64,000 nt of DNA from contig OX377204.1 of assembly GCA_947396885.1 (NCBI GenBank), positions 25,427,706 to 25,491,705 on the forward strand. The letters are read 5' to 3'. This DNA comes from Heligmosomoides polygyrus polygyrus (taxonomy: Eukaryota > Nematoda > Chromadorea > Rhabditida > Heligmosomidae). The notes under the pieces were generated by a model that ran no database searches, was not told the DNA's origin, and worked only from the letters and a program-made list of their open reading frames with translations. Positions 279-64,000 of this stretch are shown here, piece after piece; positions within the stretch are counted from its first letter, which is position 1, and every line of letters begins with the position of its first letter. The translations under genes and the position numbers were made by a program.

Positions 279-1351
279 ATTTCCACGTTGTTTTATATTT
301 CTGCTCTTGAAGTGCTTATTGAAGTATGTCGAAGGAGCGATTCCGGACGATATCTTATATTAACTTCAACCTGGGACAACCGGCAGCCGATGCAGCTGGT
401 CAAGTCAATCAACTGTGGGGGCCCAATAGTGCTGGAGAAAGCACTTTGCCCCAGTGGTTCAGTAAATTTCGGACGGGAGATTGCAGCTTCGAAGATGACC
501 CCCGTAGCGGTCGACCTAGAGCAATCCAGTACGACGAGGGAAAGAGCTAGACGTTAGTAAAACTGCTGCTAAGGATGCTTTGAAACGCCTTGTGAAGGTG
601 GGAAAGCTCGAAAAGTGGGTGCCCCACGACTTGAGTGAGCGGCGAAAATTGTCACTCTACGATATTTGTTCTTTTCTATTTGACGCACCAAAACCGACCC
701 GTTTCTGGATGGAGTCATCACTTATGATGAACAGTGGATTCTATGTGATAACAGGAAATGTTCCGGACAGTGGTTGGACGCCGGCGAACCCCTTAGGCAT
801 TTCCAAAGAGCATTTCCAAAAAAAGGTAATGGTCACTGTGTGGTGGTCGGCGGCTAGTGTGATCCATTACAGCTTTTTGGCACCAGGCCGAATGATCACA
901 GCGGAATCCTACTGTAAGGAAATCGACGAAATGCACCGAAAGTTGCGTCAACTTCAGCCAGAAGGCACTGGTTAACAGAAGGGGCCCGATTCTTTTGCAC
1001 GATAACGCCCCGCCCGCACGTTTCACAAATCGCTATTCGAAAAATGAATGAATGAAGGGTTGAAGTTCTGCCTCATTCGCCATATTCTGCAGACCTCCCA
1101 CCAACCGACTACCACTTTTTCAAATACTTCCAGAACCTTCTCGCTGGTAAAACCTTCGCCAATCAGAACCAAGCCAAAGCAGATTTCGTGGATTTTGTCG
1201 AATCTCGACCACCTGATTTTTTCGCTGAGGTGGCCCGTTGGCAAAAGTGTGCTGAACGGTGCGTATTTCGACTAAATCCGATAAGATTTGAGAAAGTTAT
1301 GGCGGTTCAAAGTGAAGTTCTCAAAACGCTGAGAACTTTCCGGGCAAATTA
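279..1351 (+). mobile_element. Decayed mariner (DD34D) element, copy 1
   Basis: Remains of a mariner transposon in the same family as the copy at 39856-41116. The N-terminal helix-turn-helix part starts at the ATG at 326 (MSKERFRTISYINFNLG) and includes the conserved WFSKFRTGD and RSGRP stretches up to about 520. Frameshifts and stops follow. The catalytic part resumes at 580-975 (KVMVTVWW, then YCKEIDEMHRKLRQLQ) and the second Asp region is readable near 1000 (LHDNAP). The Asp of the usual DEKW motif is replaced (LMMNSGF), so this copy cannot be active. The right terminal repeat is visible at about 1320-1351 (GAGAACTTTCCGGGCAA), matching the right end of copy 2. The left terminal repeat is missing: similarity to copy 2 starts only around 279. 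Family assignment is firm; exact ends are approximate. Confidence 0.8.
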
Positions 1352-2640
1352 ATAGATTCTTCTTGCTTAAGAATTGCGATTGCTTATGCTAAAGTAGCTT
1401 AGAAATTTGAGTGCCGAGATGGCTGAAAGCTTTTATCCTACTTCATACAGCACATAGACTCTTTACGCTCTGAGGATACGTTATGAAGAGGAAATTCCAG
1501 CGCATTGCCACCAATCTGTCTAACAGGTTCGGAGTTTAAGCAGCGGATAGTGGTGATCTCTAAAAGATCCGATATCCGTTGCCTCCTAACTGCACTGCAA
1601 CTCAATGGTGATGAAATCAGGATTGACGCCAATTTTCGTGTAGATGCTGGAGTTCCACTGAAGTGTGACAAATGAGGAGCTCTTTCTATTGACCCAACAA
1701 TTTTCGCAGAGCAGGACAATCATTCTCTTCTTACTAGGTTCGTATCTGGCTAATTCTGAATAATGAACACATCGGCATAAGCGTTGGATAATTATGCTAG
1801 GCTTAGCACTAGATCAAAGATGTTTACCAACTCAAGCTAATTATCTACATGGACATCTCCCTAACGAATGCACACAGCTTTTGTTCTCATCTTACATACT
1901 CAGGTTTCTTGATTGCTACTACTGTATCGTTACTGGCGGTATGCTACGCTTTATGACTTTAGCTTCAACCTAAACATCAATTCTAGTAAATCTAAAATTT
2001 ATCTATTATAGATTCAGCGCAAGTGGGACATTTTCCTTTGTCATCATGGGGAAGAAAACTGAGAATCTTGGCCGGAGCGATTCTATTTGCTCCTCCAAAA
2101 AAAAATCCGTCTAAATGCAGCCATTAACTGTATCAATCAAGTTGAAAGTACTGAAGGGTATAATTTGAAGCTGAGAACTCTTTACAATTTTGGAGCATGA
2201 ATAGCTGCGTCATGTCATGCCAATTTGAACATGCGCTTTGCTTGACTGCTGTCTATTAATATTGATGACTTTAGAATGAGCCCTAAATATCTGCTTCAGG
2301 TAACAAGGTAACATTGTAGATCACACGATAAGAAAAAAGACCTTGTAGATATGGCTGCGGTCGTAGTAGCATTCGTTCTTAGCACTGATATTCGAACATC
2401 TGAGCATGACCAAGGCTCATTAGCTCCTTCAACTTCTGGCCAATGTTTCAGAACCAAATTCAAGTTAAATTTTAAAACTATGCTAGTGTAGCTAATAGCT
2501 CATTCATTTCGATCGGCCCTACTACAGTGACAATCACTAGTCCATGCACACTTATTGATTTCGTAAAATCGATTGCATACATGTTTTCATGCAAATACTC
2601 GAAATCATTGAAATAGACTAGGTGTGGATGTTGCGCTCGG
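1352..2640. other. Low-information stretch with one possible exon
   Basis: No repeat or gene was recognised apart from the possible exon at 1527-1675. The sequence is AT-rich with many stops in all frames. Confidence 0.4.
1527..1675 (+). pseudogene. Possible terminal exon, unknown product
   Basis: Starting after an AG at 1525-1526 (context TCTAACAG) one frame stays open for about 49 codons to a TGA at 1673. The product includes EFKQRIVVISKRSDIRC and ends GVPLKCDK, with mixed charged and hydrophobic residues as in real protein. I do not recognise a family. There is no convincing upstream exon: the preceding frame (MKRKFQRIATNLSNRFGV) stops at 1538. It could be a gene relic or chance. Confidence 0.22.
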
Positions 2641-25910: not shown

Positions 25911-25913
25911 CCA

Positions 25914-26937
25914 GGCCAGATTCATCAACCGCTTGCCGGTCGGTAACGGGGTTTCGCTTATCGTGTCCATTTCTCTGTGCATCACTTACTATTAGGTTGG
26001 CAACTAATTTCGTGGACTCTCAAGAATCTTCAGCAAAAGTATTTATTAACAAATAACAAATGACAATCCTTAATCAAAATAAGATCCCTCGGAACACAGA
26101 AGTGCTACCCATACATCAGGTAGCTGGTCTATCCCACGGCCATAGAATTATTGTGCTTTTAAGGCCAAGAATCTTTGGAGGTGCATTTGGACCCGGTCCA
26201 CATTATTAAATCGTCTTCCAACCAAGAAGTACTGCACCGAACTAAAAATGTGGTAGTCGCTCGGCGCAAGATCTGGGCTGTAAGGTGGATGAGTTTGACG
26301 CTCCCAGTCAAGGTCTTCTATTTTTTGAGGCGTCCGGTTAGCTACGTTCTCTCCGTTTGGGGGTGTCAAGAAAGTATTAACTTCTAGGAGCTCGTCAAGA
26401 ACGGTTTCGGCATTAATGCTGTAATCTACTCTTCTCACCCTGGCCGTGCGTAGGCTGAACTCCGCTGGAATCGGTTCAGACAGATTTTCAGGAGCGGAAT
26501 TATCTATCAGCAAGATAACGCCAGATCACACGACACGAATCGGGAGCTTCAAAAAATCGAAGACCTTAGCTGGGAGCGTCTAACTCACCCACCTTACAGC
26601 AGAGGCTGTGCGCCAAATGACTAGCACCTTTATAGCTCGGTGCAGCACTTCTTGGTTGGAGGACGACCTATTAATTTGGACCATGTCAAAATGCACCTCC
26701 AAGGATTCTTGGCTTCGGAACCACAAGAATTCTACAGCTGTGGGATGGGCCAGGTAGCTGATAAATGGCAATCAGTCCCGCGTTCCAACAGATCTTACTT
26801 TGTTTGAAAACTGTTATTTGTTATTTGTTTATGAACACTTTTGTTAAAGGCGCTTGAGAGACCACGAAATTAGTTGAAAACCTAATATATACATAGTCGT
26901 GAATCCGCGTGAGATGGTATTGTTGATGAATCTGGCC
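25914..26937. mobile_element. Short TIR element (GGCCAGATTCATCAAC ends) hosting a mariner-derived insert
   Basis: The left end GGCCAGATTCATCAACCGC at 25914 and the right end (GTTGATGAATCTGGCC ending at 26937) are inverted repeats. The trinucleotide CCA flanks both sides (25911-25913 and 26938-26940), consistent with a 3-bp target duplication. Without the nested mariner derivative (25992-26885) the element would be only about 130 bp, a MITE. Similar ends occur at 33559 and 38854. Confidence 0.65.
25992..26885. mobile_element. Mariner-derived foldback: two mariner 3' ends in inverted orientation
   Basis: Both termini read TTAGGTT..CAACTAATTTCG and TA lies immediately outside on both sides (25990-25991, 26886-26887), the mariner hallmark. 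The left arm read on the minus strand encodes HPPYSPDLAPSDYHIFSSVQ, the region of the third catalytic Asp; the right arm read on the plus strand encodes the same region again (YSSVQHFLVGGRPINLDHV). The two arms of about 340 bp (25992-26330 and 26540-26885) are therefore inverted copies of a mariner 3' end, joined through a spacer of about 210 bp. A minus frame of 121 codons (26513-26148) runs through the left arm. N-terminal and first catalytic parts are missing, so it is non-autonomous. Confidence 0.75.
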
Positions 26938-26939
26938 CC

Positions 26940-33345: not shown

Positions 33346-33558
33346 TGGCATCATCTCTACGCTTTCGATAGCGCAAACTCAAGGATGACTGTGTAACCGT
33401 TTCGTGAGAAGCACAAAACTGCTGGTTGGACAAGGGCTACTGAGTAGATCTTTGTGATCTTTCCTAAAAAATTGTTTTCTGCTATCAAAATAAAGCTCTG
33501 AAGGAAGACCCAATAGCAGCAGTGTAGATCAAATTCGCGTAACAATTGGATTTCTGCT

Positions 33559-33694
33559 GGGGCCAGATTCATCAACCGCTTACCGCCCTCTAACGGTAAG
33601 AATACCGCCAAACCTGATGCTGATGAATGTCATATCAGAGGGTTTGGCGGTACTTTTCACCGTTAGAGGGCGGTAAGCGGTTTGTGAATCTCGC
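33559..33694. mobile_element. Hairpin MITE with GGCCAGATTCATCAAC end
   Basis: Left arm GGGGCCAGATTCATCAACCG and CTTACCGCCCTCTAACGGT; right arm ACCGTTAGAGGGCGGTAAG and CGGTTTGTGAATCTCGC. The arms pair over about 55 bp each with a short loop, so the whole 136 bp folds into one hairpin. No coding capacity. The outer end matches the ends at 25914 and 38854, placing it in that MITE group. Confidence 0.8.
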
Positions 33695-38784: not shown

Positions 38785-38853
38785 TACAAAACTCATCATC
38801 ATCATCATTTTCATTAGCGTCTGTCCCGCTTGGTGGCGGGATCCGCTCTTCTG
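38785..38853 (-). mobile_element. RTE copy B, 3' tail (separated part)
   Basis: CATCATCATCATCATTTTCA followed by TTAGCGTCTGTCCCGCTTGG matches the 3' end of the RTE at 62646 base for base over most of its length. It ends at CTTCTG, exactly where the 5.97-kb insertion begins; the rest of the RTE resumes at 44825. Confidence 0.85.
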
Positions 38854-38902
38854 CGGCCGGATTCATAAACGACTATCCCGTGGGTATAGGGGGTAGAGAT
38901 TA

Positions 38903-39103
38903 TAGTTGTGCTCTCTCAAAAATTTCGAATAACCGAATATATTCAAATAGAGACGGTTTTCGAGCATTCGAATTCGAATAACATTCGAAAATCACGTTTT
39001 TTCGAGCACTCGAATTCAAATACATTCGAAAATCGCGTTTATCCTAGCATTCGAATTCGAATATTCGAATTCGAATGTTCGAGTAATGATTCGGGCTCAA
39101 CTA
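38903..39103 (+). repeat. ATTCGAAT-rich array with TAGTTG-type ends, left copy
   Basis: About 201 bp from TAGTTGTGCTCTC to CGGGCTCAACTA, whose ends are inverted repeats. The interior has about two 41-bp units of the form CGAGCATTCGAATTCGAATA plus ACATTCGAAAATCGCGTTTT. Each unit has the dyad ATTCGAATTCGAAT. Confidence 0.8.
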
Positions 39104-39146
39104 GGGTTTTGGGAGAGAGGATCGTTTCATCAAAGCAATTACGGGG

Positions 39147-41392
39147 TATACACTGTTTAGTAGGTGATAACGTTGCTCAAGGTAAGGGTACTGAAGAAGT
39201 TAAGGGTATATGAAAGCTTAATAAAATAAAAATTTTCTGACATACAAGCGGTGTTAACTGCGCAATGCACTCATCTGAATTCTTATCATTTTACATTTGA
39301 TTGATTGTGTTTCACTTGTATAAATGTTTTAATTTCTCCTTAAGGAAACCCTGTCATTTGATTTGGGCTTCTTTCAATGTTTAAAACTTTAAAACACACT
39401 ATGGGTTGCGAAAAATGCAGGGTATCCTAAAAATGCAAGTACTAATTGAAAGGTTCTAACATTGCTTCTAGTGAAGCTTTTGTAGCTGTTTGAGACTAAA
39501 GCACAGGGTAACGAAATTTCTGTGGCGTGCAAATAGTCATACTGTTCCACACCCTGCCAGAAACCTTGCATTTCAGGCTTGATTGACTGTGTATGGGTCA
39601 CACGAGTGGGGTGTGCTTTGGAGTAGTCGCTAAATCGCCTCTGCACTCCGACGATGTTTTCGATTTTCCAGAAGCACTTTAGGATAAACTTTTTCTCCTC
39701 GAAAGAAACCCTAGGGCCGGCATGACTCTTGTTATGGGCTCAGACATGTAGAAAGCGTTATTAGAGCAATAGCGAGAACGGAAAATTGTTGAATCAATAA
39801 AACAGCTTCGAATGTTTCACTAGCAGAAATGTTAGAATTTTAAAATATAATATTATGTTGTTCGGAAAGTTTTCTGCGTTATGTGGCACTATTTTTCAAT
39901 CACCTATTGTTAAGTAAAAATTCAACTTGCATTGCGCATTAATGCTACTTTCTGCACAGAATTTTCTATCTCATTTATGTTTCAACGTTGTTTTATACTT
40001 CTGTTCTTGAAGTGCTCATTGAATCATGTCGAAGGAGCAAATCCGAACGATATTTTATTTCGATTTCAAATTGAGACAACCTGTAGCAGACACAGCTCGA
40101 CAATTCAATCGAGTGTGGGGGCCTAATAGTGTTGGAGAAAGCACTACGTACCAGTGGTTCAGTAAATTTCGGATCGGAGGTTTCAGCCTCGTATATGACC
40201 TCAGTAGCGGTCGACCTTTGGCAATCCTGGAGGACAAGTTGAAGGAATTGTTGGAAGCTGAACCATCCCAAACAGTTTGGGGATCGCAGAAGGGCTAGAC
40301 GTCGGTAAAACTGCTGTTGCAGGTGCTTTGAAACGCCTAGAAAAGGTGAAAAAGCTCGAAAAGTGAGTGCCCCACGTGATGAGTGATCGGCAAAAATCGT
40401 AACGTTTTGAGATTTGTTCTTCTCTACTTTTACACAACAAAACCGATCCGTTTTTGGATTGGGTCATCACTTGTGATGAAAAATGGATCCTGTGTGATAA
40501 CAGGAAACGTTTCGGACAGTGGGTGGCCGACGACGATCCCCCTACGCATTTTCCAAAGGCGAACCTCCTCACAAAAGGTAATGGTCACTGTGTGGTGGTT
40601 GGCAGCTGGAGTGATCCATTACAATTTTTTGGCCCCAGACCAAACGATCACAGTAGAGACCTACTGTAAGGAAGTCGACGAAATGCACCGAAAATTGCGT
40701 CAACTTCAAACAATATTGGCCAACAGAAGAGGCTCGATTGTTTAGCACGATAACGCCCGCCCACACGTTTCGCGAATCACTATTCGAAAATTGAACGAAT
40801 TAAGGGTTGAAGTTCTGCCTCACCCGCCACATTCTCCAGACCTCTCACCAGCCGGCTACCACCTGTTCAAATACTTTCAGAACTTTCTCTCTGGTAAAAT
40901 CTTCACCAATAAGGACCAAGCCAAGCCAGCTTTCGTGGATTTTGTCGGTTCTTGATCACCCCATTTTTTTGCTGATGAAATAGGTCGACAGGTGACCCGT
41001 TGGCAAAGGTGTGCTAGTTCGAACGGAGCTTATTTCGACAAGATCCGATAAGATTTGAGAAAGTCATGGTACTTCAAAGTGAAGCACTCAACACGCTGAG
41101 AACTTTCCGTACAACCTAACAGTTCCATTTTTCGCGAGCCGTAGAGTGTTTTAGAATTTTAAACTTTAAAGAAGCCCAAATTAATTAACAAGGCTCCTTT
41201 AAGGAGAAATTACAATTACTTAAGTGAAACACAATCAATCAAGTGTAAAATGGAAAAAATCAGACAAGTGCTTGGCGCAATCCACACCACTCATATGTGA
41301 GAAAATTTATATTTTAAAAGCATTCATTCTTGTCCTCAATCTCTTGAGTACCTTCACTCTGAGCGAGGTTATCACCTTTCTAACACTGTACA
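39147..41392. mobile_element. Foldback element split by a mariner
   Basis: Left arm 39147-39415 and right arm 41120-41392 are inverted copies with scattered mismatches: TTGATTGTGTTTCACTTGTA at 39300 pairs with AAGTGAAACACAATCAATCA at 41223, and TAATTTCTCCTTAAGGAAA with CCTTTAAGGAGAAATTAC. The inner loop holds about 440 bp of unknown sequence and the mariner 39856-41116, whose right TA abuts the right arm within a few bases. No protein of its own. Confidence 0.75.
39856..41116 (+). mobile_element. Mariner (DD34D) element, full length, copy 2
   Basis: Ends TGTTGTTCGGAAAGTTTTCT (left) and the complement GGTTGTACGGAAAGTTCTCA (right) are flanked by TA on both sides. Length 1261 bp is normal for mariner. 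The transposase starts at 40026 (MSKEQIRTIFYFDFKLRQ) with WFSKFRIGG and SGRP. It continues through shifted frames with VITCDEKWILCDNRK (first Asp), KVMVTVWWLAAGVIHYN, HDNARPHVSRITIRKLN (second Asp) and PHSPDLSPAGYHLFKYF (third Asp). The catalytic motifs are all readable, but several stops and frameshifts (for example near 40298, 40400 and 40743) prevent expression. A mariner called bandit is known from hookworm; whether this is the same family needs alignment. Confidence 0.85.
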
Positions 41393-41394
41393 CA

Positions 41395-42070
41395 TTTTTT
41401 CAGACACACTGTATATTTACAACAAGTGCCCTATCCCATCTGTACGTGGGCTTCGCACTTGCTCGCCTAGCTTGATGTCTGTCGCTAATATATGTATAAG
41501 ATAAACATATTCATACACTGGGATAAATTAATCGCTAATGTCTGGGTAAGATCACCAACACTAATTGTATGGTGCAATCCATGAAGTTCTTTTTGGTTTG
41601 GGTTCGTTCGAACCCGTTGTAAAGATTACAAATTTCAAAGTTTGGGCAAATAGACTTCTCAATGCGATCATCACATCATCAGATCTTTACCATAAATGGC
41701 AGCTTCCTCACCTCCCCTCCTCTTGCTTTCCTCTCATTTATACTGTAAATTAACAGTCCGGTGAACAATCTTATACGAAGCATTGAGAGAATAACACACC
41801 TCGCCTTTCGACACCCCTCTAACCCTTATTTAAAATTAACGGCCGTTAAGACCTGCCATAACCCTTACCGCTTATAATCCCAGATGTGTTTTAGCAGGTT
41901 GGTTTCCACATACTGAGCGATAAAAGAAAACTAACCGCAGCGTATTCTAAGCTTCTTTTGGAAGCGGATCTGCCTTCGAAATGAAAAAGGTGTCAAAAGC
42001 ACAACTCCATTTCAGTTTTCAACTTCAACTCCTCTTTTGGAAGTGATAATGCATCAAAACCGACTAAGGG
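41395..42070. other. Part of the composite element, unassigned
   Basis: A motif at 41915-41945 (CCACATACTGAGCGATAAAA) recurs in the same orientation at 43959 (CCACATTCTGAGCGATAAAA), so an unknown element may span or flank the foldback between them. No coding region. Confidence 0.35.
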
Positions 42071-43047
42071 GGAAGGGTCTCAGGCGAAGGTCTGAGCGGG
42101 GGAAACAGATAGTACTGCGAGAATCTCCACCCTTCAATTAGTAGAAAAACATGTTTCCTTTTTGCTGAGTCCTTGAACCAAAAGAGCTACGGACCCTCGA
42201 AGGTGGGGTACAGTAACGCACCGTCAGCGCGTGCCAACGTGCACACGTGCCCGCGTCGATGTATGGGAAGTGGCGAAAGGCGGTGCGGCGAACGAATCGG
42301 TGGCTCAGCAGGGTGTGACGCTGCCTCACAGGTGCTAGGCCAGATGATCGATTCCACAATTTTTGCATTTTTTTGGGTCAGATTTGTGATCAACACCTCA
42401 GATAAGCCCTATAGGCAAAGTTTGGACGAAAACGGTGACCATGACCTTACCATTAGTCACCCCGTACTTCAGCGTAATACCAAAAACGATTCGTGGTCAG
42501 CACCCAAATAACCTTCTCCCCTGGGAGAAGTTTGGGCGAAATCGGTGGTTATGACTTGACAGTCCAAGTCACCCGTACCTGCTGTGTGGTCACTGTTTAA
42601 CATTCGCTGAAAAACATATTACCTTGCATAATACAAAAGTGAGAGATGTGAGTGAAGCAGAGCGTAATCTTGTTTTACAATTTATAATGAGATAAATGTG
42701 TAGGAGATGTGTAGGAAGCAAATAGGTAAAGGAGGCAGCGGTCATAAAAAAATGCAAAATTAATGCGCAGCACCGCAGTCGAGCATCTGGGCTAGCACCT
42801 GTGAAGCAGCGTGGCACCCTGCTGAGCCACCGACGTGCTCGCCGCACTGCCTTCCGCCACTTCCCATACGTCAGCGCGCACACGTATGCACGTGGGCACT
42901 CACTGACATAGTGAACCCCACCTTCGAGGACCCGTAGCTCTTCTGGTTCAGGAACTGAACGAAACATGCTTTTCTACTGCATGAAGGGTGGAAACTCTTG
43001 CAGTACTATCCATTTTCCCCGTTCAGACCTACGCCTGAGATCCTTCC
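42071..43047. mobile_element. Foldback element, ~290-bp arms
   Basis: GGAAGGGTCTCAGGCGAAGG at the left end is matched by the complement of ACGCCTGAGATCCTTCC at the right end. Further in, GAGCTACGGACCCTCGAAGG (42183) pairs with the complement of CCTTCGAGGACCCGTAGCTC (42921), and GGTGGCTCAGCAGGGTGTGA with CACCCTGCTGAGCCACCGA. The loop contains a direct duplication of about 110-bp period (AAGTTTGGACGAAAACGGTG, AAGTTTGGGCGAAATCGGTG). The arms are GC-richer than the surroundings and generate spurious open frames. Confidence 0.75.
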
Positions 43048-43049
43048 TT

Positions 43050-43437
43050 GGTAAGTAAAAATTCATCAATACAGGTCAAAGTCGACTCTTCAAAGCCTTT
43101 TTTTGGGAGCGGATCCAAACGATCCCGCTTCTGTACATAGGCGAATCGGCGTCGGGATCTGGTCTCCTGGTTACGGGATGCCTTTGTCGCAGAATGTCCC
43201 AATTTGAATTCGTAAAGCATGATGACTCGGTAGTCGCGTCGGTTCATGATTTTACGGGGGCTATGGAGAAAGTTGGCTAGAAAAATTAGAGCGAAATCTA
43301 CATATATTTTTTGGAAGAGCAGGAAAAAACCTACCGAACGGTATATGTGACTTTCCCTGAGATGGGATGCTTTGGGATAAAAAAAACTTATTTTTCTATA
43401 CATACCTCGAAACGGAAATTAATTTTGTGACAGCCTA
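43050..43437 (-). mobile_element. Mariner N-terminal fragment
   Basis: The minus strand encodes MNRRDYRVIMLYEFKLGHSA then TKASRNQET, the helix-turn-helix start of a mariner-type transposase. It is preceded upstream at 43437 by TTAGGCTGTCACAAAATTAA, which looks like the 5' terminal repeat. The rest of the transposase is missing; the fragment abuts the right end of the foldback at 43047. Confidence 0.6.
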
Positions 43438-43439
43438 AC

Positions 43440-44460
43440 ATTATTCTCCCTCGCCAAAAAAAGCAGCTTTATAAAATTTCAACCAATGTGTCTACGTGTT
43501 GAGTAGTGAAATGAAATTTCAAAAAGTTATGCTAATTTTCCTTGAACAAAAATTATTTATTTATTTATATAAGATTATTTATATAAGACATGCATACATG
43601 ATACATTATGGAATGCATTCATACATCAGAAATGAAATAAAATTTAGAAAAACGCCGACGAGATCAAGGCGGATCGAAAGTGACATTTCTCCAGATGAAG
43701 GTTTTAAAAGCATCTTTCGACAAACTAAGTTGTCTTGGCTAGTAACGAACTGTTCTAACTAGTCACGAATTATTCTCTTATTTAGTCATTATTCTAGCCC
43801 TTTTGAAGAGTCTCTAGTTTAATGCGAAAAAATCTCGTTTTGATTTGGAAGGTGTTCCGTTGATTCCAATAGAGTTACACTTGTTGAGAAGAGTGTCCAA
43901 TTAGTCGTGAAATATGTTCATTTTGATTTGAAAAGTGTCCAGCTTAACATTAGTTTCCACATTCTGAGCGATAAAAGAAAATCGCCCGCAGCGATAAAAG
44001 AAAACCACCCTGGAGATGTGCCGCCGATGTTGATAACGTGCCTGCGGAATCAGAAGACGTTTGGGCAGGTTGTGGGGCACAGCGGCGTTGATTCATGCGA
44101 GGGAGGCCTCTTTCGTTGCGAGATTTTTGCATTTCCACGCAGTGGTTGAGATTTGACGTGTTTGACGTCTACATTATTCGCTGGCGTTTTCTGTGCATTT
44201 TCCAGCTGTATGCGTTTCCGCGCTCGAGAGCGCAGAACCCAGCTGCAGACTCCCCTGGGTGACGAAAGCAGTTCCCACACGAGCAGCTTGCACACCCTGG
44301 AGTCCCTTCCTTAGCCTGGTTCTGCGCTCGAGGAATATACGGCCCCTGAGTTCCTAATGAGGGAGCACTTTTCTGATTGGTGCGTAAATTATTTGCTTCT
44401 GGGATGCTTGAAGCAGGAAAGATAGATTATTTTGTTAGATTGCAGATTTCGTAACAATCG
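43440..44460. other. Part of the composite element, unassigned
   Basis: 43800-43960 (AGTCTCTAGTTTAATGCG, then TTTGATTTGAAAAGTGTCC) resembles an arm of the 15.65-16.33 kb foldback. A microsatellite-like TTATTTATTTATATAAG lies at 43556. Other sequence has no recognised feature. Confidence 0.4.
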
Positions 44461-44461
44461 A

Positions 44462-44721
44462 ACGTTCGAATTCGAATGTATCGAGAATTCGAATTTGAAC
44501 ATTTGAACACGAGTGTTTCGAGCATTCGAATTCGAATACATTCGAAAATCGCGTTTTTTCGAGCATTCGAATTCGAATACATTCGAATATTCCGTTTTTT
44601 CGAGCATTCGAATTCGAAAACATTCGAAAATCGCGTTGTTTCGAACGTTCGAATACGAATATTCGAATTCGAATAGAATTATTCGAATTCGAATGCTCGA
44701 ATATTCATTCGGGCGCAACTA
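44462..44721 (+). repeat. ATTCGAAT-rich array, right copy
   Basis: Three clear 41-bp units (starts at 44521, 44562 and 44603, each AGCATTCGAATTCGAA) plus degenerate ones, ending CGGGCGCAACTA at 44721. It has the same orientation as the left copy, judged from the asymmetric spacer AAAATCGCGTTTTTTCGAGC. No separate left end of TAGTTG type is visible. Confidence 0.8.
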
Positions 44722-44824
44722 TAGTAGAGATACCCGCGATGGAACCTGCGTCTCTGACTCTTACCTTATATCTACCTGACTCTTATTTCTATCCCACGGG
44801 TTTAAATGTTGATGAATCCGGCCC

Positions 44825-46100
44825 CTGGTGTGGTGACGTCAGTTCACCAGATCAAATGCTTGATCAGAGTGCACATCAGCCATCTTTAAGTCCAAGTGCA
44901 ACGTATATAGCCAAGGTTTCTCCGGGCGTCCTCTGGACCGCTTTCCAGGGACCTCAAGGTTCAGATCAATCTTTTTGACGGTGTCGTCGTTAGCGCGAAG
45001 GACATGGCCGCACCACCGAAGACGAGTTTCGCGCAGCTTCTCGGCTATCGGGGCGACACCGAACCTCTGTCGTCGTTGCGAAAGGGCTTTGCTGTACCGA
45101 GTTTGAGGCGTGCAGCCCGGGTTATCGCATCGGTAGCATCATTCCAGGTTTCGTCTACAATTGTCACCGTCGGCAACCGAATGCGAGAAATAACTGTTCC
45201 TTCTCATTTAGTCGCCCCCATTTGATTCTAGCTGACCCGCATCGCTCGGCATGTTTAATTATTTATTTATACGTCAAATAGACGTGCACAAAGCGCCAGA
45301 AAACAAGATCGAAACAAGCCATGCAATGAAAAAAAAGACAACACTAAAGCAACGAGAACAACAAATCACCCGGCAGTTGCAACCCTTTGGCAACCAATTT
45401 TGAACTAGGGGAACAGGTGGCACAACTTGTTAGTAATACCTCGAATGTGTGATCTTCAGCGAACAGATCAGTAGACGACGTCACTATTAAGGCACCTGCC
45501 ACAACAATCATATCTTCTGACGGCACTTCCGCTGTCTTGTCATCAAGCAGGGACCAAAACTCGTCCTTGGGTAGCTCGGAGCAGCCTGTCTGCGGAGCAT
45601 ACGCAGAAAAGAAATGGCATCGTCGCTCCTCTACGCCGACAACAATCATCATCAAGCGGTCATTGAAACGTTCTACGTTTGTAATCGGGTCACGGAATCG
45701 TTCAGAGACGATTATTCCGACACCATTGGTGGTCCTGGGACTGCCGCACAAAACGGCCTTGAAGCCACGGCCAATGTTCCTCGACTTGCAGCAGGACCAC
45801 CTCGTCTCCTGCAGCGCACAAAAATCAACTCTTCTTCGCTCCCGATGCCGTCATCGCATCATGGACCCTCGCATACTTTCCACACTCGCCGGCCTTTGCG
45901 AGTGCGCGTCGGCTCCCGCGGACGCCGTAGCATTATCTCGGAAGCTCTTAAACGTCATCAACCAAATGATGTGACACAAATGTTCGTAGGCCGGCCTGTC
46001 ATTAGGGCCTGTCGCCTGCACTCGAATATCCGTGTTTGGCTTGGTTCGAAGAGGCAAACAGTTTCCAGTGGCACCACGTGGAGGAACGGACATCGTCATC
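44825..46100 (-). mobile_element. RTE copy B, internally deleted (main part)
   Basis: On the minus strand the endonuclease region appears first: CALQETRW (about 45797-45820), NGVGIIVSERFRDPITNVER and SAYAPQTGCSELPKDEFWSL. A CR1-like tail fragment interrupts at 45245-45350. The linker follows (TIVDETWNDATDAITRAARL, about 45100-45180) and is joined near 45060 to the C-terminal segment found in copy A (RFGVAPIAEKLRETRLRWCG). The whole reverse transcriptase core is missing. The 3' tail is displaced to 38785-38853 by the 5.97-kb insertion. Clearly dead. Confidence 0.8.
45245..45350 (-). mobile_element. CR1-like LINE 3' tail fragment inside RTE copy B
   Basis: In the minus sense the sequence ends TTTGACGTATAAATAAATAA, resembling the tail of the CR1-like LINE at 54300 (TATTGACGTATTAAATAAAT). 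It lies between endonuclease and linker parts of the RTE, as a short, heavily 5'-truncated insertion would. Confidence 0.5.
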
Positions 46101-48060: not shown

Positions 48061-48390
<330 letters not shown>

Positions 48391-59594: not shown

Positions 59595-59665
59595 ATGGGC
59601 ACCCCCGAAGTCGAACCCTCGACCCCTCTCTCGTAAGACTGTCTCGCTATCCACCCGGCCATCCA
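59595..59665 (-). repeat. tRNA-like segment in the right foldback arm
   Basis: In the minus sense GCCGGGTGGATAGCGAGACA is an A-box match and GAGGGTTCGACTTCGG a B-box match, about 40 bp apart. Stems are imperfect. This is the more tRNA-like of the two arms. Confidence 0.5.
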
Positions 59666-59720
59666 GTCGTTGACGTCACTGTCTCGCTATCCACCCGGCC
59701 ATCCAGTCGTTGACGTCACT
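59641..59720. repeat. Perfect 40-bp tandem duplication
   Basis: 59641-59680 and 59681-59720 are identical (GTCTCGCTATCCACCCGGCC plus ATCCAGTCGTTGACGTCACT). It duplicates the A-box end of the tRNA-like segment. Confidence 0.95.
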
Positions 59721-60036
59721 GAATGAATCACCTTAATACACACCGCTGCTTTGACAAGGAAGTGTAGGAAATTATCGTATTACTATAATCTAACTTTAAT
59801 TTGAGCTTCAAACCTTTAGTAAGATAAGTTCAGAGTACGACAAGGCCATTCCAGGTGTCACTTTTGCCTTATCAGCCCGCTCTAAATTGATACAATTTTT
59901 CGCCATTTTTGGACCACAGAGTGGCCCGTAGCAAAAAAGATACCCAGCTGTGTAATCCCCGTCCGATGCTCTGCAAGACCTTTTACGTAGGTCACCTTAA
60001 GAATCTTTGCGGGAAGTTCATGGGCGTCCCTTGTTA

Positions 60037-62546: not shown

Positions 62547-62645
62547 GTAAGATTTATATCCCTCTGGCGTCGGTGAATTGATATCAGAGTTGTCTGCGAA
62601 GGAAAAAAACGTTGATTTGTTCGTCAGCTGGCCACCGCAAGTTAT
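62547..62645 (+). repeat. tRNA-derived SINE, middle part, after the foldback
   Basis: CCCTCTGGCGTCGGTGAATT, TGATATCAGAGTTGTCTGCG and CAGCTGGCCACCGCAAGTTA continue the SINE interrupted at 60763. It stops at the RTE 3' end at 62646. Confidence 0.8.
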
Positions 62646-64000
62646 TCATCATCATTTTCATTAGCGTCTGTCCCGCTTGGTGGCGGGGTCCGCTCTTCTG
62701 GTGTGGTGACGCAAATTCTCCCGATCAAATGCTTGATCAGGGTGCACACCAGCCATCTCTAAGTCCAAGCGCAACGTATCTAGCCAACGTTGCTTCGGGC
62801 GTCCTCTGGGCCGCTTTCCAGGGACCACAAGATTCAGGCCAATCTTACACACGGTGTCGTCGTTAGCGCGAAGGACGTGGCCGTACCATCGAAGACGAGC
62901 TTCGCGTAGCTTCTCGGATATCGGAGCGACACCGAACTTCTGTCTATGGTGTCGTTACGAACGCGGTCCAAACGCGTAACTCCAGCCGTCCACCGTAGCA
63001 TCTTCGTCTCCATTACACTGAGGCGGCTTTCAACTTCCTTCGTCACGGGCCAGCACTCAGCACCGTACGTCGCTACTGGGCGGACTACTGTTCTATAAAC
63101 CTTCGATTTGAGGTGCTCAGGTATTGTCCTGTCGCAAAGCACCCCAGTCAGCGAGCGCCATTTGGACCAGGCTGCACTCACACGCGCATTCACCTCCATC
63201 TTTAAGCTGCCATCGGACGTGACTGTTGACCCAAGATACTTGAAAGATGTCACTCGTGAGAGCTCAGTACCATCGATCTTAATAGATCCGTGCTCATTCA
63301 CATCCGTCGTCAAGTATTCCGTCTTTTTGACGTTTAGCTTGAGACCGAACAATGCCAAGCGATCGCACCACGCCTGTGCCTGTCGCTCGAGTTCGGTTTT
63401 GTCTTCACATGCAAGCATGACGTCGTCAGCATACAGCAGCGTCCAAGGTGCCGCCATTTGGAGATCTCGTGAGATTGCATCCATCACGACCACGAAGAGC
63501 AGTGGGGATAGCGCAGATCCCTGATGCACCCCCACAGAGATGGGAAACTCCATCGAGGTGCCCGCTGGCGCCCGCACTCGACTCCTTGGGCAAGAGTATA
63601 GAATGCGCACCCACTCAATAAGCTCTTCAGGGATACCATGTTGTCGCAACGCGTACCATATAACATCTCGCGGAACGCGGTCGAAGGCCTTCTCCAAGTC
63701 CAGGAAGGCAAAATGCACCGGTTTCTGTTTCTCGCGGTGCTTCTCTAGCAGAAGACGAACGGCGTGAATGGCATCAACGGTGCCACAGCCAGATACGAAA
63801 CCACACTGATTCGTGGAAAGCTGTACGACATCCCGGATACGTCCGTCGACAATTCGCTCAAAGATTTTCATGGTGTGCGAAAGAAGACGAATTGGACGGT
63901 AACTGGCGCAGTCTGCAGGACTGCCCTTCTTCTTCCAAATCGGGATGGTCGTGCTTTGCTGCCAACCCTCAGGCACTTTCTTCTCAGCAACAACCTGATT
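62646..64000 (-). mobile_element. RTE-type LINE, copy A, runs off the right edge
   Basis: The 3' end lies at 62646 with short ATG/ATC repeats (CATCATCATTTTCATTAGCG), typical of RTE tails. The element reads leftward from beyond the window edge and includes RT and C-terminal regions. RTE elements encode an endonuclease and RT in one frame and have very short 3' UTRs; here only about 30 bp separate the last codons from the tail. The insertion interrupts a SINE. Confidence 0.85.
62664..64000 (-). pseudogene. RTE reverse transcriptase, partial at the edge, one frameshift
   Basis: Open from the window edge (NQVVAEKKVPEGWQQSTTIP) leftward. Motifs in order: SYRPIRLLSHTMKIFERIVD, NQCGFVSGCGTVDAIHAV, FAFLDLEKAFDRVP (catalytic Asp codon at 63700-63698), GVHQGSALSPLLFVVVMDAI, LLYADDVMLA (Asp pair beginning at 63430), and KYLGSTVTSDGSLKMEVNAR. 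Near 62940 one base is lost; after it the C-terminal segment (FGVAPISEKLREARLRWYGH, GKRPRGRPKQRWLDTLRLDL) continues in the next frame to about 62664. All catalytic residues are intact, so this copy is young. The endonuclease lies outside the window. Confidence 0.85.

Follow-up and report, generated by a model that had tools for sequence, protein, structure and literature searches.

A stretch of 64,000 nucleotides from contig OX377204.1 (assembly GCA_947396885.1) of the nematode Heligmosomoides polygyrus polygyrus, referred to here as the window, harbors at positions 38854-44824 an insertion that is best read as part of a five-layer nest of known kinds of mobile element. An RTE-type retrotransposon carries a miniature inverted-repeat transposable element (MITE), M; M carries a 5.8-kb non-autonomous element of the hAT type, X; X carries a Tc1-type foldback, B; and B carries a mariner, C. 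The probability of this reading is put at about 0.92.

A second element inside a MITE

The outer limits of the insertion, as given in the original prediction, are exact to the base. The trinucleotide CTG is present at 38851-38853 and again at 44825-44827, the RTE copy at 62.7 kb having it a single time, and the flanks, once joined, align to that copy (62641-63000) with no gap across the junction. The 17-bp inverted ends, CGGCCGGATTCATAAAC on the left and GGGCCGGATTCATCAAC on the right after reverse complementation, are identical at 15 of 17 bases and belong to a group of ends found elsewhere in the window: the 13-mer CGGCCGGATTCAT, with at most two mismatches, is present six times, these two ends included (0.92 expected; none of 100 shuffles reached six). 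Repeat arrays, two foldbacks and a mariner do lie between the ends. What did not hold is the treatment of the 5.97-kb stretch as one element, as it consists of two, M and an element X inside M. The internal boundary, which had gone unnoticed, reads GTAGAGAT followed by TATAGTTG at 38893-38908 and CAACTATA followed by GTAGAGAT at 44716-44731, an exact 8-bp duplication around X, and it assigns the arrays, the foldbacks and the mariner to the inner element alone. Removal of 38901-44723 and one copy of the 8-bp duplication leaves an M of 140 bp.

Copies of X elsewhere in the genome confirm this boundary. The left 253 bp were used to query the assembly (656,174,362 bp in 1,130 contigs, of which six of 97-112 Mb account for 96.3%), giving 98 matches at the 40 places scored of 2,689 candidates; the best match per place starts at query positions 36-51 and so excludes the outer ends, the window itself excepted. 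Twenty stretches of 5.3-9.9 kb, denoted here by L numbers, were fetched around the best left-end places. They contain five complete copies of X with the mariner (L022, L028, L030, L035 and L037), three partial copies (L023, L025 and L032), five related long forms (L024, L026, L027, L036 and L040) and seven short forms of ∼200 bp. The X copies in other flanks start with TATAGTTGTGC, finish with GCNCAACTATA and mostly have an 8-bp duplication of their own. The six complete copies (the window and five others) are 93.4-95.4% identical in pairs over the shared columns of a 5,986-bp consensus, once insertions private to single copies (82-2,238 bp, in four of the six) are set aside, and five of the six have 8-bp duplications. 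A query from the interior of X (43100-44000) found copies on all six large contigs among the 40 places scored of 2,576 candidates, at 85-93% identity, a 93-bp piece and the window's own copy excepted. The 20-base left end TATAGTTGTGCTCTCCCAAA is present at 649 places with at most one mismatch, long and short forms pooled, and at none for the reversed control. The notion that the TATAGTTG ends mark a Tc1/mariner element with a TA duplication was ruled out, as the flanks carry 8 bp. In L003 (1301-1760, near G000:C52:24580600), the left end of X and its flank are repeated in inverted orientation ∼350 bp inside, which makes the flanks of that copy palindromic.

The target duplications of X were tabulated for the 16 copies with both ends placed, namely the window and 15 of the 20 stretches; L023, L024, L025, L032 and L036 have no complete right end in the stretch, and L005, which is not among the 20 stretches and was left out, matches at six of eight bases by eye. 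At least six of the eight bases match in 13 of the 16 copies, and all eight in eight copies. Position 2 is T in 12 of the 13 well-matched duplications and position 7 is A in 10, a bias that fits the target consensus nTnnnnAn described for Ac-family hAT elements (PMC8961557); an 8-bp duplication is a property of the hAT superfamily (PMC3942097).

The original prediction had offered two alternatives, each of which is right about a different element. A MITE inflated by nested insertions is correct for the outer ends, given that the eight sampled copies with both ends are cargo-free, except that M took up a single 5.8-kb insertion and no series of them, the nesting having come earlier, within X. 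The other alternative, a large non-autonomous element from a family without a name, does not describe the unit between the outer ends; since X is a multi-copy family with older internal nesting, it does describe X, with its TATAGTTGTGC ends and 8-bp duplication.

The outer MITE

The 17-base M end GGGCCGGATTCATCAAC has 5,152 exact occurrences in the genome and none for the reversed control. With the right 106 bp of M as query, 45 matches were obtained at the 40 places scored of 1,295 candidates, and nine loci besides that of the window (L043-L051) were fetched. Eight of these have both ends matched, span 132-162 bp and hold no internal cargo; L051 has no matched right end. The target duplication is exactly CTG or CAG in six of the eight scorable copies, as it is exact in the window, and has one mismatch in L046 and L048. 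Uninterrupted copies such as L045, which reads GTAGAGATACCC and GGGGGTAGAGATACCC, constitute the empty site of X. Possible misassembly was assessed through the duplications and paralogous empty sites.

The end GGGCCGGATTCATCAAC starts with GGG. Within the PHIS (PIF/Harbinger-ISL2EU-Spy) superfamily, NuwaI elements duplicate CWG and their terminal inverted repeats usually begin with GGG (PMC4482050); both features fit M, which would have been mobilized by a PHIS-type, NuwaI-like transposase. A full relative would be expected to have a DDE transposase and a Myb/SANT protein between M-type ends. The domain DDE_Tnp_4 (PF13359) has 41 matches in the genome; beside one of the 41, the 1.3 kb read contained no M-type end (CGGCCGGATTCAT; GGGCCGGATTCATC).

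In L043, one copy of M seemingly lies within another. A relative of M, ∼1 kb long, at window positions 25913-26938 (AGGCCAGATTCATCAACCG to ATGAATCTGGCCC) is apparently inflated by a mariner-like foldback, and its target duplication can be read as CCA or CAG. A short palindromic MITE at 33558-33690 starts with GGGCCAGATTCATCAACCGC, adjoins CTG and has a degenerate right end.

Layers inside X and their probable order

The nest comprises the following features, in window coordinates.

38795-38853, minus strand: end of an RTE-type retrotransposon, left flank (RTE on the minus strand), from the gap-free junction alignment to 62641-63000
38851-38853, no strand: CTG, copy 1 of the 3-bp target duplication of M
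38854-38900, plus strand: MITE M, left part (CWG-duplicating, NuwaI/PIF-Harbinger-like), from the family ends and copies L043-L051
38893-38900, no strand: GTAGAGAT, copy 1 of the 8-bp target duplication of X
38901-44723, plus strand: element X, 5,823 bp, non-autonomous and hAT-like, ends TATAGTTGTGC and GCGCAACTATA, from the six-copy alignment, the 8-bp duplications and hAT genes with one such end
38901-39103, plus strand: left subterminal module of X, in which TTCGAA units of 41 bp form a tandem array whose inner edge has an end-like CAACTA; corresponds to the 203-bp MITE Y
39142-41411, no strand: B, a Tc1/mariner-type foldback, arms 39146-39417 and 41126-41393, TA at 39140-39141 and 41412-41413
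39853-41119, plus strand: C, a mariner within B, transposase frame from 40026 broken
41899-41942, plus strand: E1, a 44-nt direct repeat outside D
42071-43047, no strand: D, a second foldback with arms of ∼280 nt, possibly TAA-flanked in the X consensus
43950-43993, plus strand: E2, partner of E1, 86% identical
44450-44723, plus strand: right subterminal module of X, a TTCGAA array in direct orientation relative to the left array
44724-44731, no strand: GTAGAGAT, copy 2 of the 8-bp duplication of X
44732-44824, plus strand: MITE M, right part
44825-44827, no strand: CTG, copy 2 of the 3-bp duplication of M

All six complete copies of X contain C and D, and all contain B, which in L037 is short of 176 bp at its right edge. 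B includes a weak remnant of a DUF4817 helix-turn-helix (E 0.016, below the Pfam cut-off), and the ends of C are inverted over 27 nt. The long relatives suggest that these layers were added one by one: in L027, C is unmatched and homology breaks off at most 5 and 11 bp from its two edges, and the break in homology around B in L026 indicates that B, together with C, is absent there. In the consensus frame of C, codon 126 is a stop triplet in all six copies (TAG in one copy and TAA in the other five). Five of the six are thrown out of frame ahead of that codon by private indels, and every copy has stops in its own frame. The simplest order is X, then B, then C, then the decay of C, and then the amplification of the whole; the broken mariner and the Tc1-like foldback probably entered in separate steps and were later replicated with X. 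It is possible that the absences in L026 and L027 arose by deletion, which would need to fall near the element edges.

A second mariner at window positions 280-1355 shares 77.5% of 1,148 aligned bases with C, and a 151-amino-acid open piece of it matches Transposase_1 (E 1.1e-16).

Transposases that may move X

The search for the source of mobility relied on the hAT dimerization domain, which gave 55 matches in the genome (150 places scored of 281 candidates), and 20 of the downstream flanks were read. The flanks L063 (within stretch L073) and L065 (within L072) belong to two copies of one hAT gene, 82-88% alike depending on the segment. Exons in L073 match the zf-BED domain (E 6.5e-4, half a bit under the Pfam cut-off) and the hAT dimerization domain (E 2.2e-11); the BED exon has no solved-structure match at E 1. 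Matching between L072 and L073 ends within a base of an X-type terminus, GAGAGCACAACTATA / GAGAGCATAACTATG, where the flank beyond in L072 is only 18 bp. The last ∼215 bp of each match the left end of X, inverted: L073 6357-6568 corresponds to X 210-1 at 84.5% identity, and L072 7166-7382 is 80.7% identical. Each has a single array, in a shared orientation and at a similar distance from the gene. A flank of another hAT lineage, L068, has a TTCGAA-rich subterminal array of its own and an apparent TATACTTGTG end at 960-1330; subterminal arrays may recur in several of the genome's hAT lineages. The point at which L072 and L073 cease to match, along with the array and end of L068, argues that the left terminus of X is the terminus of a hAT element.

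Pfam detected no hAT domain in seven translated pieces of X and one piece of L026, the longer pieces being those scanned; the seven X pieces gave one weak DUF4817 match and one weak unrelated match, and a listing of the long open reading frames of X and of the related long forms gave no result. The lack of a hAT domain in these pieces points to X as non-autonomous. Combined with an X-type end and array that close copies of a hAT gene, and with the nTnnnnAn duplications, X is most likely, as judged from sequence, a large non-autonomous hAT element. X would be mobilized in trans by hAT transposases of the genome that recognize the TATAGTTGTGC ends and probably also the TTCGAA arrays beside them. 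As these enzymes would act on the ends of X, the dead mariner and the foldbacks would ride passively as internal cargo. The transposase of Herves binds a short subterminal motif, CG/AATTCAT (PMC3143072), and by analogy the TTCGAA arrays are putative transposase binding sites.

Two further observations concern hAT flanks. In L058, a tandem array of ∼118-bp units, 96-99% alike, lies at 687-1496 downstream of a hAT dimerization exon. At position 383 of L055, 0.4 kb past a different hAT exon, GCACAACTGTG is followed by TAGTGTTA, possibly the terminus of one more hAT lineage.

Weighing the nest against its rivals

Several observations weigh against the nest as described. The duplication matches at only one of eight bases in L037, four of eight in L033 and two of eight in L039, whose left end was probably misplaced by hand, and several of the tabulated ends of X were set by hand at a terminal TATA. 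The left end of M in the window reads CGG, starting with C and not G. At the right edge of the mariner C, the expected TA reads CA in the window and in the consensus. L027 holds a short unaligned stretch where C is missing, and in L026 homology halts just before B and the BLAST match restarts 119 bp past its right edge; neither is thus a base-exact empty site. The stop at codon 126 falls in the start-codon frame of L035 only, since private indels shift the other copies. With regard to the hAT assignment, TTCGAA arrays are present in only three of the 20 hAT flanks (L063, L065 and L068), the other 17 having at most two TTCGAA apiece, and the right end of X has so far no hAT counterpart. No single element joining a hAT gene to X-type ends on both sides (TATAGTTGNGC) was recovered, and no TATAGTTG-type terminus was found on the 5' sides of L072 and L073 in the stretches read. 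The 5' ends of the hAT genes were not found in the stretches read of L072, L073 and L074, so that no autonomous element is in hand.

Could the whole 5.97 kb nonetheless be a single non-autonomous unit bounded by CGGCCGGATTCAT ends, with arrays, foldbacks and mariner as its own body? The 3-bp duplication and the inverted ends on its outside do exist, but none of the nine sampled loci with these ends shows cargo, the eight both-end copies measure 132-162 bp, an 8-bp duplication sits inside, and the cargo's five other complete copies have TATAGTTG ends as their limits, where a query that included M reported no M. This makes a single unit extremely improbable; among the loci sampled, cargo copies without M and M copies without cargo rule out X and M as one body. 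It is also very improbable that X does not move as a unit and owes its dispersal, as a segmental or satellite-like repeat, to recombination between its arrays. The TTCGAA arrays at its two ends are direct repeats able to recombine, and L037 lacks a duplication, yet 13 of the 16 tabulated copies have separate 8-bp duplications and sharp termini, and copies of the interior lie on all six large contigs. Duplications of 8 bp are likewise made by the P and Merlin superfamilies, to either of which X could belong if copies of X, or of its short form Y, had merely inserted beside hAT genes. The lack of a hAT domain in the scanned pieces and the one-ended association in L072 and L073 would suit such a membership. 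However, matching between those stretches stops within a base of the terminus (with the caveat of the 18-bp flank in L072), their single arrays agree in orientation and approximate distance from the gene, L068 of another hAT lineage seemingly also ends in an array and TATACTTGTG, and the duplications show the nTnnnnAn bias, so that this assignment is improbable.

The short form raises a different question. Y is a 203-bp MITE that starts as the left end of X does, the first 80 bases of L031 being identical to the consensus, and finishes as its right end with the diagnostic CGAACGTCCGAATACGAAT. As Y has both ends of X, it is either the unit from which X was built or what was left of X once recombination between the direct arrays had removed the middle; in either case, Y would be the short form of the hAT system of X. 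If Y is the building block, X would be a compound element: two direct copies of Y would have come to flank the cargo, with the whole now mobilized through the outermost ends. In X, the left module spans TATAGTTG to an end-like CAACTA, as a whole Y does, and the right module retains the diagnostic right half of Y. Against this, the right module has no visible TATAGTTG-like left end in the consensus, internal deletion of X by array recombination yields Y equally well, and the right 0.4-0.7 kb is common to the long relatives L024, L026, L027, L036 and L040, which suggests an inherited body. A compound origin is hence unlikely, although it retains an appreciable minority chance. More tentative still is the conjecture of a eukaryotic compound transposon in which two direct hAT MITE modules enclose unrelated cargo of ∼5.4 kb, with the TTCGAA arrays amplified into oversized landing pads for the transposase. 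If true, such arrays would enable a hAT enzyme to transport a passenger load of unusual length, which then spread to dozens of loci.

Other features of the window

A perfect TG dinucleotide repeat of 164 units occupies 48062-48389, and a perfect 40-bp tandem duplication of 2.1 copies occupies 59638-59721. A viral-contig pattern scan yielded 13 stretches.

Significance and comparison with known systems

The five-layer nest turns a confusing composite into ordered layers, two of which have exact duplication signatures of their own. It brings to light, in a nematode, a family of large, non-autonomous, hAT-like elements that multiplied with a dead mariner and foldbacks on board, and a MITE family of very high copy number whose duplications are of the NuwaI type. 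These two abundant families, X and M, are worth naming and of interest to transposon annotators, for whom the locus is also a caution against assigning enclosed DNA to the element whose inverted ends lie outermost. The mechanism of the nest is unsurprising, consisting basically of ordinary, known kinds of element. Word searches of open papers, including for co-amplified nests and for NuwaI in nematodes, found nothing on the X family among the papers listed.

Among known systems, M is closest to the NuwaI group in its CWG duplication and GGG start, and differs in being a MITE known here by its ends and duplications; the hosts listed for NuwaI comprise 12 bony fish, a beetle, a crustacean, a mollusc and an anthozoan, with no nematode among them (PMC4482050). 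X resembles Ac-group hAT elements and particularly Herves of Anopheles gambiae, which has 11-bp imperfect terminal inverted repeats and tandem repeats near one end (PMC3143072): it shares the 8-bp duplication, the short ends and the tandem repeats in the terminal regions. Unlike Herves, X is 5.8 kb with no transposase found in it, has 41-bp TTCGAA arrays at both ends, and has foldbacks and a mariner aboard. BuT2 of Drosophila is a hAT element whose short MITE-like derivatives keep the ends, and one copy has a likely mariner insertion (PMC3942097); in X, by contrast, the mariner-bearing form has itself been amplified. A comparable spread of a passenger repeat is the MER6 element with a SINE (short interspersed element) V domain, which was disseminated via a burst of a DNA transposon (PMC6887750). 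In the mammalian MER6 the passenger is a SINE domain, whereas in X it is transposon cargo in a hAT-like vehicle.

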